Position numbers and translations under genes: made by a program. A DNA stretch of 64,000 bases from Kibdelosporangium persicum (GTDB lineage: Bacteria; Actinomycetota; Actinomycetes; Mycobacteriales; Pseudonocardiaceae), in NCBI RefSeq assembly GCF_013280595.1, contig NZ_JAAATY010000008.1, positions 248,001-312,000 of the forward strand. Direction: 5' to 3'. The notes beneath the pieces were generated by a model, which was given only the letters and a program-made list of their open reading frames with translations, did no database searches and had not been told where the DNA came from. This document shows positions 18,910 to 49,661 of the stretch, piece after piece. Each line of letters starts with the position of its first letter. Position 1 is the first letter of the stretch.

Positions 18910-21339
18910 CTAGCCGAACCCTCGGACCGCTTCTCCCGCGGGGAAGCGGCTGTCTTCCGCGCCAGGCCGTGCGACGGGTTGCATCGACGGGAATGACGGG
19001 TGTTCCATGCCGGGCCGCGCGACCGGCCGCATGTTCGGGAACGAGGGGTGTTCCACGCCCGGTCGCGCGACGGGCTGCATGTTCGGGAACGACGGGTGCT
19101 CCATCAACGGCATCGGCGGCCGTTGAACAGGACGCATCGCGGGGAACGACGGGTGGTCCATCATCTGGTCGTCGCTCGGCCGCGCCACCGGCCGCATGGT
19201 GGGGAACGACGGGTGCTGGTCGGCGGGCATCGGCGGAACGGGCGGAAGCGGCTTGCGGTCGCGTTCCGGCCGTCCGGCCCGGCGTTGCCGCGAAGGCGGC
19301 GGCGCGGGCCGCATCGCGTCCGCCGGGGTGTCCGGCACCTCGATGTTCGGGACGGACAGGTTCGACAGCGACAGGTTCGGCGCCGACAGGATCGGCAGGG
19401 CCGTGGTCGGCGGCAGGAGCGGCTCCGAGCGCACCGGCGGCACCGGCTCGGTCATCGGCCCCGGGTCCCTGCCGAGCATCGGCAGCTCCGGCTTGGCGTG
19501 CCGGCCGGACGGCTGCTCCACTGGCGGCATGCCCCGCCTCGACGGCGGTTCCACCGGAGCCATCCCGCGCCGGGACGGCGGTTCCACCGGCGGCATCCCG
19601 CGCATCGACGGCCGCTCGACCGGCGGCATCCCACGCCGAGACTGTGGTTCGACCGGCGGCATGCCCCGCCTGGACGGCGGCTCCGCCGGAGCCATGCCAC
19701 GCATCGACGGCGGTTCCACCGGCGGCATCCCGCGCATCGACGGCCGCTCGACCGGTGTCATGCCACGCATGGACGGCGCCGGACCCGAGTTCATCGGAGC
19801 CGCGGCACGCGGCATGGCGGGCATCGGGCGCCTGCCCGAGTTGGCCGGAGGCGGCACCGGCTGCATGTTCCGGCCTGTGGTGCCCATCACCGGCGGCCCG
19901 GCCGGCGCTGGTGGCCGGACCACCGGCGGCCCGGCGGGCACCGGCATCGGCGCCGAGATCTGTGCCGAAGCCTGGGGACGTCCGGCCCCGGCCAGCGCGG
20001 GCACCTGCGGGGCGGGGACCTGGGTCGGCATCTCGGCCAGGGTGTTCTGCCGTACGGGCGGTGCCGGTGGCCGCAGCGCCGACTGCGCGGCGACCGGCTC
20101 GGTCACCGGTGGCTTCGACGGCGCCGGGATGACCGGGCGGCGGCCCTTGGTCTCGGTGGGAACCGGCAGTTCCTCGTGCAGCTTCTCGGTCCACTTGATC
20201 ATCGCGCGCGGCGCGTCCCAGCCGCACACGCCGACCAGCTTGCCGTTGCGCACGTACCCGGTGATGCCGGGTGTTCCGGCGGCACCGTCGGCCAGCTTCA
20301 CGGTGTCCGTGCCGAGCGACGGGATACCGGCGATCTGCAGCCGCACACCGTACTGACCGGACCACACCCGTGGGATCGGCATGAACGGTGTGGCCTTTTC
20401 CCGGCCCAGCAACAAGTTCTCGGCCGCGTGCCGTCCCATCTCGACAGCGTTGATCCAGTGCTCCACGCGCCGCGGCGTGTCGTCGAACCGCAGGTTGGGC
20501 CACCGGCCGCAGTCACCCGCGACCACGACGTCCTGCGCGCCCGCGGCGAACAAAGTGGACTCGCACAGCACGCCGTCCTCGAGGATCAGCCCGGATCCGC
20601 GCATCCACTCGACCGCGGGGATCGACCCGACCGCCATGATCACCGCGCCCGCGACCAGCAACTGGCCGTCGGTGGTGTGCATCGCGACGGAGTCGTCCGC
20701 ACAGATCCAGTTGCGGATGTCGGTGCCCATCGCCATCCGCGCGCGGTGCTTGCGGTGCAGGTTGTCCACGGCGGCGGCGACGTCGTTGCCGAGGTTGCGC
20801 AACGGGAAGCGGGACCGGCCGACCATGGTCACGTCCCGGCCCATCTTGCGGGCGCTCGCGGCGACGTCACAGCCGATGTAGCCGGTGCCGAGCACCACGA
20901 TCGGCAGGTCGCTGCGGTGGATGGTCTTCTTGACCGCCAACGCCTCGTCCACTGTGCGCAGTGTGTGCACCCGCGGGCTGTGCCGGGGAACACCCTTGAG
21001 GTGCCGGGGCTCCACACCGGTCGCGATGATCAGCCCGTCGTACTTGATCTCCTCACCGCCGGGCAGGTGCACGACTTTGCGCTGTGTCTCGAGCCGTTCC
21101 GCGCGGGTCCCCAGGCGCCAGCGGGCACCGGTGTCGATGTGCCGCTGCAGGGTCAGGTCGGCCGGGCGGTCGCTGCCGGCCAGCAGGTCCTTCGACACCA
21201 ACGGGCGGTGGTACGGCCACCGCGGTTCGTCACCGATGATCACCAGCTCACCGTCGTAGTCGAGCTCGCGCAGGCGTTCCGCGGCCCGTAAGCCGGCCAC
21301 CCCCGCGCCGACGATGACGATGCGTTCGAAGTCGGTCAT
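18910..21339 (-). CDS. FAD-dependent ferredoxin-type reductase with long Pro/Met-rich repeat tail
   Basis: An 809-residue protein. Residues 1 to about 400 form a pyridine-nucleotide-disulphide-type reductase: FAD motif IVIVGAGVAGLRAAERLREL, NAD(P)H motif VVLGTGYIGCDVAAS, and FAD motif VVVAGDCGRWP. This is like the reductases that feed P450 or Rieske ferredoxins. The second half is low-complexity, rich in Pro, Met, Ser and Arg. It includes eight 11-residue repeats PS[MR]RGMxPVE[PRQ] (about 522-609) and five HPSFPxM[RQ]PV[AQ]RP repeats (about 709-792). Usual family length is about 400, so the tail is exceptional. Its start abuts the ferredoxin stop. Confidence 0.88.
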   Translation of the reverse strand: MTDFERIVIVGAGVAGLRAAERLRELDYDGELVIIGDEPRWPYHRPLVSKDLLAGSDRPADLTLQRHIDTGARWRLGTRAERLETQRKVVHLPGGEEIKYDGLIIATGVEPRHLKGVPRHSPRVHTLRTVDEALAVKKTIHRSDLPIVVLGTGYIGCDVAASARKMGRDVTMVGRSRFPLRNLGNDVAAAVDNLHRKHRARMAMGTDIRNWICADDSVAMHTTDGQLLVAGAVIMAVGSIPAVEWMRGSGLILEDGVLCESTLFAAGAQDVVVAGDCGRWPNLRFDDTPRRVEHWINAVEMGRHAAENLLLGREKATPFMPIPRVWSGQYGVRLQIAGIPSLGTDTVKLADGAAGTPGITGYVRNGKLVGVCGWDAPRAMIKWTEKLHEELPVPTETKGRRPVIPAPSKPPVTEPVAAQSALRPPAPPVRQNTLAEMPTQVPAPQVPALAGAGRPQASAQISAPMPVPAGPPVVRPPAPAGPPVMGTTGRNMQPVPPPANSGRRPMPAMPRAAAPMNSGPAPSMRGMTPVERPSMRGMPPVEPPSMRGMAPAEPPSRRGMPPVEPQSRRGMPPVERPSMRGMPPVEPPSRRGMAPVEPPSRRGMPPVEQPSGRHAKPELPMLGRDPGPMTEPVPPVRSEPLLPPTTALPILSAPNLSLSNLSVPNIEVPDTPADAMRPAPPPSRQRRAGRPERDRKPLPPVPPMPADQHPSFPTMRPVARPSDDQMMDHPSFPAMRPVQRPPMPLMEHPSFPNMQPVARPGVEHPSFPNMRPVARPGMEHPSFPSMQPVARPGAEDSRFPAGEAVRGFG
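18964..19215 (-). repeat. Five HPSFPxM[RQ]PV[AQ]RP repeats in the reductase tail
   Basis: Five copies of a 13-residue unit HPSFPxM[RQ]PV[AQ]RP, separated by 3-7 residue linkers that often begin with Gly or Asp, form residues 709-792 of the reductase. The last three copies are evenly spaced at 16 residues. Codons vary between copies, so the repeat is kept at protein level. Confidence 0.85.
19513..19776 (-). repeat. Eight 11-residue PS[MR]RGMxPVEP repeats in the reductase tail
   Basis: Eight tandem units of 33 bp encode PS[MR]RGM[PAT]P[VA]E[PRQ], residues 522-609 of the reductase (the fifth begins with Gln). A ninth, decayed unit (PSGRHAKPELP) follows. The units are basic, Met- and Pro-rich, and probably extended rather than folded. 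Confidence 0.88.
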
Positions 21340-45600: not shown

Positions 45601-46128
45601 GCGGCGGTGGCCAAGGCGCTCGGCGGTGTGTTGTTCATCGACGAGGCCTATTCGTTGACGGAGGCCTGGTACGACGACTACGGCTCGGAGGCGATCGCGG
45701 AGCTGATCAAGCTGATGGAGGAGCACCGCGAGGACTTGGTCGTCATCGTGGCCGGGTACGACGGCAAGATGGCCAAGTTCATGGACAAGAACCCGGGTCT
45801 GGCGTCGCGGTTCCCGACCAAGCTGCGGTTCCCGGACTACAGCGACGACGAGCTGGTCGCGATCTTCAAGGCGATGACCGCGAAGGCCGGCTACGAGCTG
45901 CACCCCGACGTGATCCCGGCGGTCCGCGAGTTGCTCAGGCGCACGCCCCGGGGCGAGTCCTTCGGCAACGGCCGGTTCGTCCGCAACGTGTTCGACCGGG
46001 CGGTGGCTCTCCAGGGCCACCGGATCACCAGCAGCGCCGAGTCACCCGAGGTCCGGCTGCTGCTCGCCGAGGACCTGCCGAAGTCCCAGGACACCGGGCA
46101 CGATGTGCCAACTGGCCAATACCTCTGA
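42634..46128 (+). CDS. Large protein with three ATPase-like domains, two of CbxX/CfqX AAA+ type
   Basis: A 1164-residue protein. Residues 1 to about 370 are helical, without known motifs. A first nucleotide-fold has a decayed P-loop (GPDATGRRT, about 405-413) and an intact VLVLDGLDRI. The second is CbxX-like with good Walker A GPPGTGKT (about 669) but a changed Walker B (VLCVESAHE in place of the usual hhhDEAY). The third has P-loop GSPGTAKT (about 940), with Ala for the usual Gly, and a normal VLFIDEAYSL (about 1000). EccA of type VII secretion is a relative of the last two domains. No ESX genes are near. Function unknown. Confidence 0.85.
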   Translation: MGRPRLPDHLEILLSDEPVVDLYAHGPWRVPDGLLEEIAERARVLNNDPRVAELPYNLTDFYGQQATVVGAELWCIVPYLSGIAAIRGGNRADLEAELLNAFRGEQLPVNRDPAWFSARTNKFRPPGDWLITAAGDDPAKRELAYQLARECLDVFAGIEPFERRRQAAIKLYELPKPEEESGTPYGNLVNVWARAATDEILADLPELAGTVNYLEWVVSGFVAAHDRLRAAISGWEAAAAVACLLQQAGVWESPAEFAVFTDTTLYENVKKYISQPFAESWATEVRAWLARGLIEGEADACRAWLDMGMRLEACFRGLPEGPNSAGTLLPVTSFQRAVRDLFRRRPLVNPLERKFTVVTRAAQEQPVPARPEFSLVGQPELASAIRDLRVDRPSEQRRIRLLVAGPDATGRRTAVSALIQNLVDNRVVAGARWISDPIYTTLDASNALQQLNRDVRECIAERNVLVLDGLDRIVGIDRCGTAVAEELRRSLKRHPELHVIAVCGLGGDTRLFDTNPALYQLFRVARTHEFTDKQYAELLKRAVARRGASISRAVSLAAGVLLTRTPPLLNLRGARLVEHLAEQSVLAARKRAKVGPSRSVGVTEADLPRQLVPGDVAGSDPQAELDSCVGLEKIKRELALLVAEEKAHRMRREAGMVVDDRARHMVFTGPPGTGKTMVARILGRMFAATGVLSSGHIVVVDRADLVHGEGWEIGPRVRRLVDRAVGGVLCVESAHELQPSDDDWRNRETVNALVAAVQSHGKDLVVVLTGPDAGVNGLLKSEPDLAAFFPSVLRFPPLTEDSFVALFEAKAEAAGFTLRDGVVQKVRSLVKSTPTGNARMAIGLLERAIARQARRVLADDVVGEDESLHEILAEDVPDTLATTSWVELPNDPLSEIDKLIGLDSVKHEVRLLVAEAKADRMRREAGIPLAAPTRHLVFTGSPGTAKTTMARLLAAVYAKLGLLSSGHLVEVSRGDLIGEYLGQTAPKVRAAVAKALGGVLFIDEAYSLTEAWYDDYGSEAIAELIKLMEEHREDLVVIVAGYDGKMAKFMDKNPGLASRFPTKLRFPDYSDDELVAIFKAMTAKAGYELHPDVIPAVRELLRRTPRGESFGNGRFVRNVFDRAVALQGHRITSSAESPEVRLLLAEDLPKSQDTGHDVPTGQYL

Positions 46129-46267
46129 CATGTGTACAAAAGGACCGGCTGTCTCCCGATCGTCAACCGCATACACCATATGTCCAACCCGTCGGACATA
46201 TGGACAACTGTCGCTCCTGAGCCCAGGGTATGCGCCACTTGGCCAACGCTTAGGACACTTGGACAAC
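46110..46267. repeat. Second cluster of TTGG(A/C)CAA-type motifs, 20-bp phased
   Basis: Related 11-mers lie at 46110 (AACTGGCCAAT), 46130 (ATGTGTACAAA, weaker), 46198 (ATATGGACAAC), 46237 (ACTTGGCCAAC) and 46257 (ACTTGGACAAC). A perfect 9-bp inverted repeat CATATGTCC/GGACATATG spans 46177-46202. Several copies are exactly 20 bp apart, about two helix turns. The cluster begins in the last codons of the ATPase gene and fills the convergent gap before the GGDEF gene, as at 6287-6400. Confidence 0.65.
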
Positions 46268-46282
46268 CCGAGTTACACCTGG

Positions 46283-47653
46283 TCAGGAGGGAATGTCCGT
46301 CCGACGGCGCAGTGGGCGCGCCTGTAAGGGGATGGCTGATGGGATGACGTCCGCAGCCGGGGCCGTCGCGCCGTTGTCGCTGGGAGTGGCCAGGCAGATC
46401 TGGTTGCGACCGGCCTCCTTGGCGGCGAGCAGTGCCGCGTCCGCCGCCAGGACCAGGCGATCGGTATCCACACCGGAGTCCGGGTAGACGGCCGCGCCCA
46501 TGGACACCCTGATGCCGTCGAGGACAAGGGTCTTGCCGGTCTTGGCGTGCGTGATGGACACCGGCGTGTGCGCCAGACGCAGCCGGATGCGTTCGCCGAC
46601 CGACAGCAGTTCGGTACTGGACGTGCCGGGAAGCACGACCGCGAGTTCGTCGCCGCCCCATCTCGCGGCCAGGTCGCCGCGGCGGATCTCGGAGCGGACC
46701 ACCCGGACGACCGCCTGGAGCGCCTGGTCACCCGCTGGGTGGCCGTAGCTGTTGTTGATCTCGCTGAACTTGTCGACGTCCATCATCAACACGCCGACGT
46801 TGCCGCCGACCAACTCGGCGCGCCGCAACTCGGCACCGACCACCTGGGACCAGAACGTCGGCGCGGCCAGCCCGGTCTTGTCGTCGGTCCGGGCCTGACG
46901 TTGGTACTGCGGCAGCAGCAGGTCGCGGTGGAGCGCCAGCACGGTGACCATCAGCACGGGCACAACCCACGGGTTGGACGCCTCCAAGGCGCCGACCGCG
47001 ATACCGAGGCCGAGTGCGGCGGCCACCACGAGCTGGTCGGACAGGTCACCGAGGGCTCGCCGGGCGGTGGCCTCCGGGGAGGACAAGAGGATCGCGCCGA
47101 CGACCATGGCGTAGTTGATCAGCCACCACGTCGCGGCCGCGGCGATCACGATGACCAGCGACCACGGTCCGACCGGGACACGTGGCGCGCTCTCCAGGCC
47201 ACCGGCCCGCAGCACCGCCGAGGCGCAGGTGCTGGCCAGGATGAACGTGGCCGCGGAGAAGATCTTGCGATGCCAGACGAACTGGCCGTAGACCCGCGCC
47301 CAGCAGAACCCGTAGGCGATCACCACGAGCGCGACTACAAGCGGTAACGGCAGTAGAAGCACCCCGGTGAACACCCAGAGTGACTTCAGGTTGGTGTACG
47401 GGACGCCTTCGACGGCGACCTCGCGCCTGCGTTCGATGCTCCGCGCCGCCTCGAGGTGCAGCAACGATGCCGTGGCCAGCACCGCGAACCACACCCATTC
47501 GGTGCGGCTCACGCTCACATGCAGGCTCGCCATCACTGTGACCAGGACCGCGACCAGGTCCGTGACCAGCACATACGCCAACGCGGCTGGTGGAAGCGAG
47601 AAGAGACGCCACTTTCGGGGCGAGACCCAGCGCAGCCTGGGGTTCACACTCAT
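46283..47653 (-). CDS. Membrane GGDEF-domain protein, possible diguanylate cyclase
   Basis: A 456-residue protein. About 250 N-terminal residues make seven or so membrane helices; the C-terminal GGDEF domain follows (ARTDDKTGLAAPTFWSQVV, MMDVDKFSEINNSYGHPAGDQAL). The active-site signature reads GGDEL rather than GGDEF (about residues 333-337), which leaves the catalytic Asp/Glu in place, so cyclic-di-GMP synthesis is possible. No EAL domain. ATG at 47653 is used; a GTG at 47683 is possible. It is divergent from the GNEWF repeat peptide gene, 119 bp apart. Confidence 0.85.
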   Translation of the reverse strand: MSVNPRLRWVSPRKWRLFSLPPAALAYVLVTDLVAVLVTVMASLHVSVSRTEWVWFAVLATASLLHLEAARSIERRREVAVEGVPYTNLKSLWVFTGVLLLPLPLVVALVVIAYGFCWARVYGQFVWHRKIFSAATFILASTCASAVLRAGGLESAPRVPVGPWSLVIVIAAAATWWLINYAMVVGAILLSSPEATARRALGDLSDQLVVAAALGLGIAVGALEASNPWVVPVLMVTVLALHRDLLLPQYQRQARTDDKTGLAAPTFWSQVVGAELRRAELVGGNVGVLMMDVDKFSEINNSYGHPAGDQALQAVVRVVRSEIRRGDLAARWGGDELAVVLPGTSSTELLSVGERIRLRLAHTPVSITHAKTGKTLVLDGIRVSMGAAVYPDSGVDTDRLVLAADAALLAAKEAGRNQICLATPSDNGATAPAADVIPSAIPLQARPLRRRTDIPS

Positions 47654-47772
47654 CACCAGGCCCGTATCAGCAACGCGGGTCACCCGGTGAACGGTAATCG
47701 GCTAGGACACCCGATGTCTTTCGGCCAGTCGGGGGTCTTGCACCGATCCGATGTGTACAGAGAGGAACGACC

Positions 47773-47922
47773 ATGAGCGGCAACGAGTGGGTCCAGCGCG
47801 GGAACGAGTGGTTCGCGGGCAACGAGTGGTTCGCAGGGAACGAATGGTTCACCGGCAACGAGTGGTTCGCGGGAAACGAATGGTTCACCGGCAACGAGTG
47901 GCTCTTCCAGGCCGCCTGCTGA
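47773..47922 (+). CDS. 49-residue peptide of seven GNEW repeats
   Basis: MSGNEWVQR is followed by five GNEWF[AT] units and a final GNEWLFQAAC. GNEW occurs seven times, at 6-7-residue spacing. AGAGGA lies about 7 nt before the ATG. Codons differ between copies at silent sites (GGC/GGG/GGA, GAG/GAA, GCG/GCA), so selection keeps the peptide, not just the DNA. A strong hairpin follows 13 bp after the stop. It has no signal peptide, is strongly acidic and Trp-rich, and ends in Cys. I recognise no family and no modification enzyme nearby. It could be a peptide precursor, a structural peptide or a binding repeat. Confidence 0.7.
   Translation: MSGNEWVQRGNEWFAGNEWFAGNEWFTGNEWFAGNEWFTGNEWLFQAAC
47779..47901 (+). 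repeat. 18-bp tandem repeat coding GNEWF[AT]
   Basis: Seven copies of a unit related to GGCAACGAGTGGTTCGCG. Spacing is 21 bp between the first two and 18 bp for the rest. Silent differences between copies argue for age and for selection on the amino-acid sequence. Confidence 0.85.
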
Positions 47923-47935
47923 TGCGAGCCCAGGG

Positions 47936-47968
47936 GGTGGCGGGCTCGCCCTCGCTGAGCCCGCCACC
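47936..47968 (+). terminator. Strong hairpin after the GNEWF peptide gene
   Basis: GGTGGCGGGCTC (47936-47947) and GAGCCCGCCACC (47957-47968) form a perfect 12-bp stem with a 9-nt loop, 13 bp after the peptide stop codon. No T-run follows, as is common in high-GC actinomycetes. It implies that the peptide has its own short transcript. Confidence 0.75.
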
Positions 47969-48037
47969 TCGGCGCCGCCGCATGCTGGTCGCGGCCGGCG
48001 CCATCGCCATAGAGACGTGGGCGTGCGCCGTGCGTTG

Positions 48038-48098
48038 ACCGGCGATGGTCCCTCAGGTCCGAAGATCGGACGCGCAGGGCAGGACCGGAATCGCCGGT
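48038..48098 (-). terminator. Candidate terminator after paaE
   Basis: ACCGGCGAT-GGTCC (48038-48051) can pair with GGACC-(3-nt bulge)-ATCGCCGGT (48082-48098). The structure begins right after the paaE stop codon and would end the leftward paa operon. Confidence 0.45.
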
Positions 48099-48099
48099 G

Positions 48100-49173
48100 T
48101 CACTGGTCGAAGTCGATCTCCACGGTGTCCGATGTGGGCACGGTCTGGCAGGTGAGTACGAAGCCCGCGTCGACCTCCGCGTCCTCCAACGCGAAGTTGC
48201 GGCGCATGTGGACCTTCCCGGTGATCACCTTGGCCCGGCACGTCCCGCACACCCCGCCCTTGCAGGCGAACGGCAGATCGGGGCGTACCCGCTGGGCGCC
48301 TTCCAGCAGGGTCGAGTCGCGGGGCACGACCGCCGTGGTGGTCCGGCTGTCGAGCCGGACGGTCACTTCGGCGCTGGGCCCGGTCGTGCCTGGGTCGACG
48401 TGGTGGACCTGCTCGGGCGGCGTGTCCTCCACATAGAACAGCTCGAAGTGGACACGTTCCCGGGGAACTCCGAGTTCCGCCAGGACTTCCCGCGCCTCGG
48501 TCACCATGCCGAACGGTCCGCACAGCCACCAGTGGTCCACCTCGGACACCCGCGTCAGCATGGGCAGCAGGAGGCGGAGTTTCTCGCCGTCCAAACGGCC
48601 GGTGAACAGCTCGGCCTCGCGGGGTTCGCGGGACAGCACGTGCACGAGTTCCAGCCGGGCTGTGTAGCGGTCCTTAAGGTCGGCGAGTTCGTCGGCGAAC
48701 ATGACTGTATTGGTGCGGCGGTTGCCGTAGAGCAGCACCGCGCTCGCCGAAGGGTCCTGCAGGACGGTCGACAGGATCGACATCACAGGCGTGATTCCTG
48801 AGCCGGCCGCCACCAGCACGTGCCGGGCCGGTGCCGGCTCGGGCGTGAAGTCGCCGGTCGGCGGCAGGACCTCGATGGTGTCGCCGGGTCGCACCTCGTG
48901 CACGAGCCACGGCGAGAACGCACCGCCGGGGACCTCACGGACGCCGATCCGTGGTTTCGAGCCGACCATGGCGCAGATCGAATACGAGCGCCGCTCGTCA
49001 CGGCCGTCGATGATCCGCCGCAGAGTCAGCGACTGCCCGGCACGGAAGTCGTACTCGGCGGCCAGGTCCGGGGGTACGTCGAAGGTCACTGCGACGGCGT
49101 CGTCGCAGAGGCGCTCCACGTGGGCCACGGTCAGTTTGTGGAACTCGGTCCGGCGACGCAAGGAGGTGGTCAT
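48100..49173 (-). CDS. paaE: Phenylacetyl-CoA epoxidase reductase subunit
   Basis: A 357-residue flavo-iron-sulphur protein. The N-terminal part is a ferredoxin-NADP reductase fold (RSYSICAM for FAD, VLVAAGSGITPVMSIL and WWLCGPFGMV for NADPH). The C-terminal part is a plant-type [2Fe-2S] ferredoxin (CKGGVCGTCRAKVITG and a fourth Cys in LTCQTVP). It feeds electrons from NADPH to the di-iron subunit PaaA in ring epoxidation of phenylacetyl-CoA. ATG at 49173 lies 2 bp after the paaD stop. Last gene of paaZABCDE. Confidence 0.95.
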   Translation of the reverse strand: MTTSLRRRTEFHKLTVAHVERLCDDAVAVTFDVPPDLAAEYDFRAGQSLTLRRIIDGRDERRSYSICAMVGSKPRIGVREVPGGAFSPWLVHEVRPGDTIEVLPPTGDFTPEPAPARHVLVAAGSGITPVMSILSTVLQDPSASAVLLYGNRRTNTVMFADELADLKDRYTARLELVHVLSREPREAELFTGRLDGEKLRLLLPMLTRVSEVDHWWLCGPFGMVTEAREVLAELGVPRERVHFELFYVEDTPPEQVHHVDPGTTGPSAEVTVRLDSRTTTAVVPRDSTLLEGAQRVRPDLPFACKGGVCGTCRAKVITGKVHMRRNFALEDAEVDAGFVLTCQTVPTSDTVEIDFDQ

Positions 49174-49175
49174 TG

Positions 49176-49661
49176 TCAGATCTCCTTGACGTGTTCGAAC
49201 GGTTCGGCGCACGCCCGGCAGCGCCGCAGCGCCTTGCACGCCGTGGCGCTGAATTCCGACAACAGCTCGGTGTCCGGCGACCCGCACCGCGGGCACGCGA
49301 CCCGCTTGGGCGGGGCGGTCAGCGTGAGCGGGATCGGGCCGCCTCTGGGCGCCGCGCCGGGCGGGGCGATACCGGCTTCGGCGAGCTTCTGGCGTCCTGT
49401 CGCGGTGATCCAGTCGGTGGTCCACGCGGGCGACAGGACCGTGCGTACATCGACGGCCCCGAACCCGGCCTGGTGCAGCGCCGAGCGCAAGTCGGAACGC
49501 ATGGCGTCCATCGCGGGACAGCCGGTGTACGTGGGCGTGATGGTCACGACCACGCCATCCGGCGTCTCCTCGACCTCACGCAGGACACCCAGATCGGCCA
49601 GGGTCAGCATGGGCAGTTCCGGATCGGTGACCGTTTCGGCCACGGCACGCGCGCTCACCAT
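49176..49661 (-). CDS. paaD: Phenylacetyl-CoA epoxidase maturation factor
   Basis: A 161-residue protein with an N-terminal MIP18/DUF59-type domain (VTDPELPMLTLADLGVLREV and TPTYTGCPAMDAMRSDL) and a C-terminal Cys-rich zinc-ribbon-like end (CPRCGSPDTELLSEFSATACKALRRCRAC). In other bacteria PaaD is needed for cluster assembly in the epoxidase complex. It overlaps paaC by 7 bp. Confidence 0.93.
   Translation of the reverse strand: MVSARAVAETVTDPELPMLTLADLGVLREVEETPDGVVVTITPTYTGCPAMDAMRSDLRSALHQAGFGAVDVRTVLSPAWTTDWITATGRQKLAEAGIAPPGAAPRGGPIPLTLTAPPKRVACPRCGSPDTELLSEFSATACKALRRCRACAEPFEHVKEI

Follow-up and report, generated by a model that had tools for sequence, protein, structure and literature searches.

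A GNEW-repeat peptide gene of Kibdelosporangium persicum compared with short tryptophan-unit peptides encoded beside a predicted membrane diguanylate cyclase

Gram-positive peptide pheromone systems of the AgrC type use polytopic membrane receptors with short outer loops, and these receptors are histidine kinases. MccC, the pump of the microcin C system, is of the MFS type. Its gene shares a cluster with mccA, a seven-codon gene that starts with Met-Arg and is made in large amounts; the MccA peptides have a C-terminal Asn, and MccB adenylates them (parts of PMC6495379 that concern mccA). The biarylitide gene bytA is likewise a minimal gene missed by gene finders, found mainly in actinomycetes and sometimes in several copies, and it encodes five residues, aromatic at positions 3 and 5, and lies beside a P450 gene (passages of PMC13417212 on bytA). 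Streptomyces CdgC and RmdB represent the membrane-bound c-di-GMP enzymes of actinomycetes, and the signals for the N-terminal signalling domains of several Streptomyces c-di-GMP enzymes are described as unknown in the relevant sections of PMC6205966.

The peptides analysed here carry a short tryptophan unit (W unit), typically six or seven residues long and with Trp as the sixth. Their genes resemble mccA in the seven-codon form, the Met-Arg start and the pump gene of the cluster. However, most W units end otherwise than in Asn; their endings vary, and MRDNNWN (L304) is an Asn-ending exception. Furthermore, no MccB-like neighbour was conserved in 23 clustered stretches, and the constant partner is a predicted diguanylate cyclase. 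W-unit genes resemble bytA as minimal genes of actinomycetes in several copies, but they stand beside GGDEF and MFS genes, and MRDNTWT, MRDKIW and GNEW do not have the five-residue form with aromatics at positions 3 and 5. The short peptide, the candidate exporter and the candidate multi-helix receptor with short outer loops recall AgrC-type systems; a short peptide is encoded next to a polytopic signalling protein of the membrane (helices counted by eye on a weak model). The candidate receptor differs from AgrC in being a putative diguanylate cyclase, and both export and sensing are suggested by gene neighbourhood. CdgC and RmdB are comparable as membrane-bound enzymes, but the parts of PMC6205966 that treat them do not mention a peptide gene, and the membrane domain of the present protein gave no Pfam match up to E 0.01.

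The peptide gene and its relatives with GNEW units

The window is a stretch of 64,000 nucleotides from a K. persicum genome of 10.35 Mb. The features at the locus are as follows.

46283..47683, minus strand: divergent partner, membrane domain plus predicted GGDEF diguanylate cyclase (coordinates of the longest ORF; the start codon is uncertain)
47693..47718, plus strand: promoter-like element GTAAT-N17-GTC (pattern count across loci)
47761..47766, plus strand: ribosome site AGAGGA (read directly)
47773..47922, plus strand: W-unit peptide gene, putative fused form, 49 codons, seven GNEW units (ORF reading, orthologues, codon comparison)
47936..47968, plus strand: perfect 12-bp hairpin, terminator-like, without a T-run, starting 13 bp past the stop

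The ORF runs from an ATG at 47773 to a stop at 47920–47922 and encodes the 49-residue product MSGNEWVQRGNEWFAGNEWFAGNEWFTGNEWFAGNEWFTGNEWLFQAAC with seven GNEW units. An earlier note on this DNA had described the 49 codons, the seven units, AGAGGA, the silent changes between copies and the hairpin, and direct reading confirmed all of these. The array scored 142–172 in Tandem Repeats Finder. In a scan of the whole genome, all six matches of a two-unit GNEW pattern fell within the ORF, and four codon combinations occur among the seven cores. Because the pattern is unique in the genome, the codons differ and orthologues exist, the array is more than chance. The note's impression that the peptide belongs to no known family agreed with the database searches, which gave 0 matches in NCBIfam up to E 10 and, in Pfam, matches far below the cut-off only. 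No description of a W-unit peptide system was found in the open-access PMC literature.

The next gene downstream is a convergent oxidoreductase with ferredoxin, FAD and NAD domains; thus nothing lies close behind the peptide gene on the same strand. RNA folding of 47917–47990 gave −45.4 kcal/mol (z −3.29), and 2 of 200 shuffles were as stable. Inspection by eye showed a comparable inverted repeat after the stop codon in the relatives of the genus. Elsewhere in the window, an 809-residue oxidoreductase-like frame (18913–21339, minus strand) has a long repeat-rich tail with MRGMPPVEPPS and HPSFPxMRPVARP repeats.

A GNEW array was found in seven of eight Kibdelosporangium genomes, the window's own included, in a search of 297 family genomes, and loci fetched from these genomes included GNEW ORFs of two further genera. 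The sole genome of the genus lacking GNEW (G114) has a PTDW peptide (L197) and a DQNW peptide (L278). A pattern scan of named genomes, which covered at least 119 stretches and is no census, added at least two Saccharothrix, at least four Amycolatopsis and at least nine Kribbella loci. A frame with four or more GNEW was present in 21 of the 119 matches listed; among these, L141, a 576-residue frame from Ruminococcus, looked unrelated by eye and was dropped, and the remaining 98 matches listed had other NEW repeats or were out of frame. A class-wide scan for two GNEW units matched 5 of 394 genomes, namely the window's own and four taken for chance. One GNEW-bearing record, JOAA01000003.1 (L059), is filed as Rhodococcus rhodnii NRRL B-16535, a name that is probably wrong. 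The orthologues in the genus, Saccharothrix, Amycolatopsis and Kribbella support the note's claim of an independent small gene. The terminal Cys, which it had considered as a possible functional feature, was limited to Kibdelosporangium among the GNEW peptides found and was rejected as such a feature.

Codon alignments were compared by pairwise differences, which are not independent events. In six loci of the genus, the GNEW columns differed by 82 silent and 0 replacement changes, where about 19 silent would be expected if the 82 were random, and the linkers by 42 silent and 70 replacement changes, with about 31 silent expected. Silent and replacement counts were 36/0 in the core and 16/72 in the linkers of five Amycolatopsis-type loci, and 139/32 and 124/430, respectively, in nine Kribbella loci, where one unit has decayed in three species. 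On these codon comparisons, the GNEW core is strongly selected as peptide and the linkers much less, as the note had proposed for the repeat. It had added that a lack of homologues with conserved repeats, or a silent-to-replacement ratio near one, would count against the idea; such homologues exist, and the core ratio is far from one.

Separate minigenes and fused chains of one unit family

Many of the GGDEF-homologue loci without a fused array had separate ORFs of 6–7 codons with their own ribosome sites (MRDKIW, MREKIW, MRDNNWT, MRNKNW and others). In a second family (f22, perhaps Micromonosporaceae), such minigenes stand in strings with a period of mostly 63–81 bp, including MRDNTWT in eight copies (L310), MRDNNWN in eight copies (L304), thirteen of the MRDTTWS type (L316) and up to six of the MRGNSWD type. 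Eighteen hand-picked arrays showed 184 silent and 10 replacement differences in codons 2–6, again as non-independent pairwise counts. In 14 of the 18, the spacers were 38–72% identical and the coding parts 83–99%; the other four had copies alike and spacers nearly identical, and added nothing to the counts. A pattern search independent of the GGDEF gene detected minigene pairs in 14 of 22 f22 genomes at 15 places, and all 15 places were beside GGDEF homologues. The reversed control of the pattern found none in the f22 genomes. Two forms stand somewhat apart. L310, L312, L314 and L318 have a 26-codon ORF with an MCDGA or VCDDA start that ends in the first unit and may be a longer precursor. In the window's genome, a lone minigene, MRGKDW, has a GGAGG-type site and adjoins another GGDEF paralogue (G000:C5, L234).

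Fused forms were scored by an identical xxW tripeptide occurring twice in a short ORF upstream of a GGDEF homologue, with GNEW not required. Where the membrane domain was at least 44% identical to the window's, 31 of 34 loci satisfied the rule on the divergent strand and 3 on the other strand. At 38–43% identity the counts were 25 of 45 and 7, with 3 of the 25 (L202, L204, L263) looking like chance by eye, and at 33–37% they were 2 of 11 and 3 of 11. Among paralogues of six genomes, the divergent strand gave 1 of 24 (L226, chance by eye) and the other strand 1. The shortest fused forms were MRENTWRENTWK and VHDQNWRDQNW (L278).

With the fused and minigene rules taken together, the divergent strand carried units in 98 of 142 GGDEF-homologue loci; the other strand gave 6 and shuffled sequence 2.2. 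These loci share ancestry and were drawn mostly from the top of hit lists. Since the minigene rule was drafted after minigenes had been noticed, the argument rests on the controls and not on the raw fraction. By group, units were present in 30 of 34 loci (at least 44% identity), 33 of 45 (38–43%), 11 of 36 (below 38%) and 24 of 27 (f22). The 44 loci without a unit by the rule include most paralogues. L172 looks frameshifted; L180, L194 and L244, whose units are single or degenerate, were scored as misses. In one genus (g3), the promoter-like element is retained along with the GGDEF orthologue, and no unit was found.

Unit types vary by lineage (SNNW, STDW, PNDW, PTDW, PSEW, PADW, PAEW, GSEW, DSNW, DSHW, DNNW, ENTW and others). 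GNEW is one of about 30 types and was rejected as a defining motif. The mean unit over 386 units of 96 loci is R-[D/P/G]-[N/T/S/K]-[N/D/T/E/I]-W; two of the 98 loci (L202, L263) look like chance and were left out of this tally. Arg stands at −4 in about three quarters of the 386 units, and most of the seven copies in the window gene are without it. As the comparison of these predicted genes shows, what is conserved is the unit rather than the chain, and it is borne either as strings of minigenes or as one fused chain. On the same comparison, the window gene is a fused form of the W-unit family. Since a single unit is a complete gene of 6–7 codons with its own ribosome site in relatives, a solenoid or multivalent structure is not needed, and the structural or metal-binding repeat that the note had considered is unlikely.

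The promoter-like element in the relaxed form GTAAY-N15..17-GTC was found on the peptide strand in 50 of the 142 loci, on the other strand in 0 and in shuffles 1.7 times. The GTAAT-N17-GTC form presumably resembles an ECF-sigma promoter. The relaxed element also precedes some GGDEF genes that have no detectable unit.

The divergent GGDEF protein and the MFS transporter

The partner contains GGDEL and RxxD motifs, with RRGDLAARWGGDEL at residue 334, and the positions of the active-site GG[DE]E[FL] and of the RxxD inhibition site are invariant in six aligned partner proteins. By its motifs, it is predicted to be an active diguanylate cyclase. The AlphaFold model, built with six sequences, was weak (mean pLDDT 60, pTM 0.43), including over the membrane domain, and a fold search with it returned GGDEF structures only. 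Counted by eye on this weak model, the partner has about eight membrane helices and short outer loops, so that a binding site on the outside is not evident.

The link with the divergent GGDEF gene, noticed earlier in the window, holds in the relatives. The gene adjoins the peptide in 20 of the 23 clustered stretches, which represent 22 different places. Of the other three, tblastn detected it in L118 and L149; L139 begins at the peptide, and the gene is present in the overlapping locus L007. GGDEF and MFS were the only neighbours conserved across genera in these stretches. Class-wide, a GGDEF search at E 1e-35 found the window's own genome only, among 394, and a search at 1e-12 found 20 of 296 genomes, two in the window's family and 18 in f22.

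Kribbella belongs to a different order. Its membrane domains are 63–68% identical to the window's, compared with 52–60% for Saccharothrix and Amycolatopsis. Kribbella steppae has one homologue of the window's GGDEF protein at E 1e-10, which is GNEW-linked and 66% identical. This suggests that the peptide gene and the GGDEF gene were probably transferred together.

In a tree of GGDEF membrane domains (68 picked rows), 19 unit-type changes were required for 18 types over 60 rows, and 200 label shuffles required at least 37. Unit type thus follows the membrane-domain tree in the sequences compared. A cognate ligand would give such agreement, and linked inheritance alone would give much of it. One Amycolatopsis genome has ten GGDEF homologues, three of them with detectable and different units (GNEW, PTDW and MSDKGW).

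On the GGDEF strand, past the peptide, 70 of 98 unit-bearing and 12 of 44 unit-less loci have an MFS gene; none has one on the opposite strand. The count used three MFS queries on fetched stretches, many of them about 1 kb long only. In 28 of the 98, no MFS gene was found within the fetched stretch. The 12 unit-less loci indicate that the MFS–GGDEF pair also occurs without a unit. The Kibdelosporangium GNEW loci have no adjacent MFS gene, and the export reading is therefore weakest exactly there. The closest MFS relative that the window's genome has elsewhere lies on contig C7 (48% identity), where the GGDEF search gave no match.

Two other arrangements were seen in the window's genome. At G000:C45:9500-14500 (L280), MFS, membrane domain and GGDEF form one open frame of 933 residues, and on G000:C25 MFS and GGDEF matches lie within one frame of 916 residues. 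The 933-residue fusion makes it plausible that both proteins work together even without a peptide gene. In genus g31 (L192, L194, L200, L205), a different convergent gene, by eye perhaps hemerythrin-like, occupies the usual place of the MFS gene.

Proposed role and alternative readings

Our best reading, held tentatively, is that a free short W peptide acts as the ligand of the adjacent membrane diguanylate cyclase and is possibly an exported pheromone. The window gene would encode a precursor with seven copies of the short Trp unit. The peptide would be produced abundantly, with multiple copies raising the dose, and fused chains would be cut into units. The free peptide may bind the membrane domain of the partner and set its c-di-GMP output, with each GGDEF lineage reading its own unit type. 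In the boldest step, suggested by gene neighbourhood alone, the MFS protein would export the peptide as a cell-to-cell pheromone. ORFs of 2–8 codons can be translated repeatedly without ribosome release, as reported in vitro for mccA in the part of PMC6495379 on this point, and such repeated translation may explain the minigene form.

A rather unlikely alternative is that the peptide is an intracellular regulator, a small protein that stays in the cell and binds the GGDEF protein, the MFS protein or some other partner. The peptide has no apparent signal sequence, and the 28 unit-bearing loci in which no MFS gene was found, though often on short stretches, would agree with this. However, copy numbers of up to 13 and very short free peptides would suit a diffusible product better, a weak argument.

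It is unlikely that the units are RiPP precursors, modified by an enzyme encoded elsewhere, with the MFS protein exporting the metabolite and the cyclase sharing regulation only. MFS genes do flank many loci, and minimal precursors of similar size and copy number are described: in the portion of PMC13417212 concerned, a five-residue biarylitide precursor is present in six copies in one Lysinibacillus strain. In the 23 clustered stretches, however, no neighbour beyond GGDEF and MFS is conserved across genera.

Improbable, in our judgement, is a translational device, in which the tiny ORFs trap ribosomes or sense Trp-tRNA in the manner of a leader and the peptide is a by-product. The strong ribosome sites, the invariant Trp codons and the in vitro retranslation of mccA-type ORFs cited above from PMC6495379 are in line with it, but the fused forms keep the unit and lose the internal ribosome sites, and the residues beside Trp are conserved with silent codon change. 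Furthermore, a Trp leader would need a gene behind it: the window has none following on the peptide strand, its next gene being convergent, and in all 70 unit-bearing loci with an MFS gene that gene is encoded opposite to the peptide.

A repeat element acting as DNA or RNA, or low-complexity sequence arisen by chance, is very improbable and was rejected: the repeats are tandem and 4 of the 18 arrays are nearly identical including their spacers, but the silent-only change in the core, the strand bias of 98 to 6 and the lack of an Rfam match up to E 1 within 46000–49500 contradict it.

Returning to the peptide as a ligand, we regard a wider picture as possible, though on the unlikely side. Multi-copy Trp pheromones of actinomycetes would be unmodified, leave the cell through MFS proteins and be sensed by a membrane diguanylate cyclase; one genome would have several separate channels, and the precursors would shift between minigene strings and fused chains. 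Cell density or kin identity would then be passed through c-di-GMP to development; in Streptomyces, c-di-GMP controls development via BldD, according to the parts of PMC4151990 and PMC6205966 on this control.

Strings of up to 13 seven-codon genes are under the size handled by gene finders and have likely been missed in annotation. Their occurrence both as separate minigenes and as a fused chain clearly illustrates how repeat peptides may come about. Furthermore, being found consistently next to a single type of membrane diguanylate cyclase, they are a candidate answer to the question of what the membrane c-di-GMP enzymes of actinomycetes sense.
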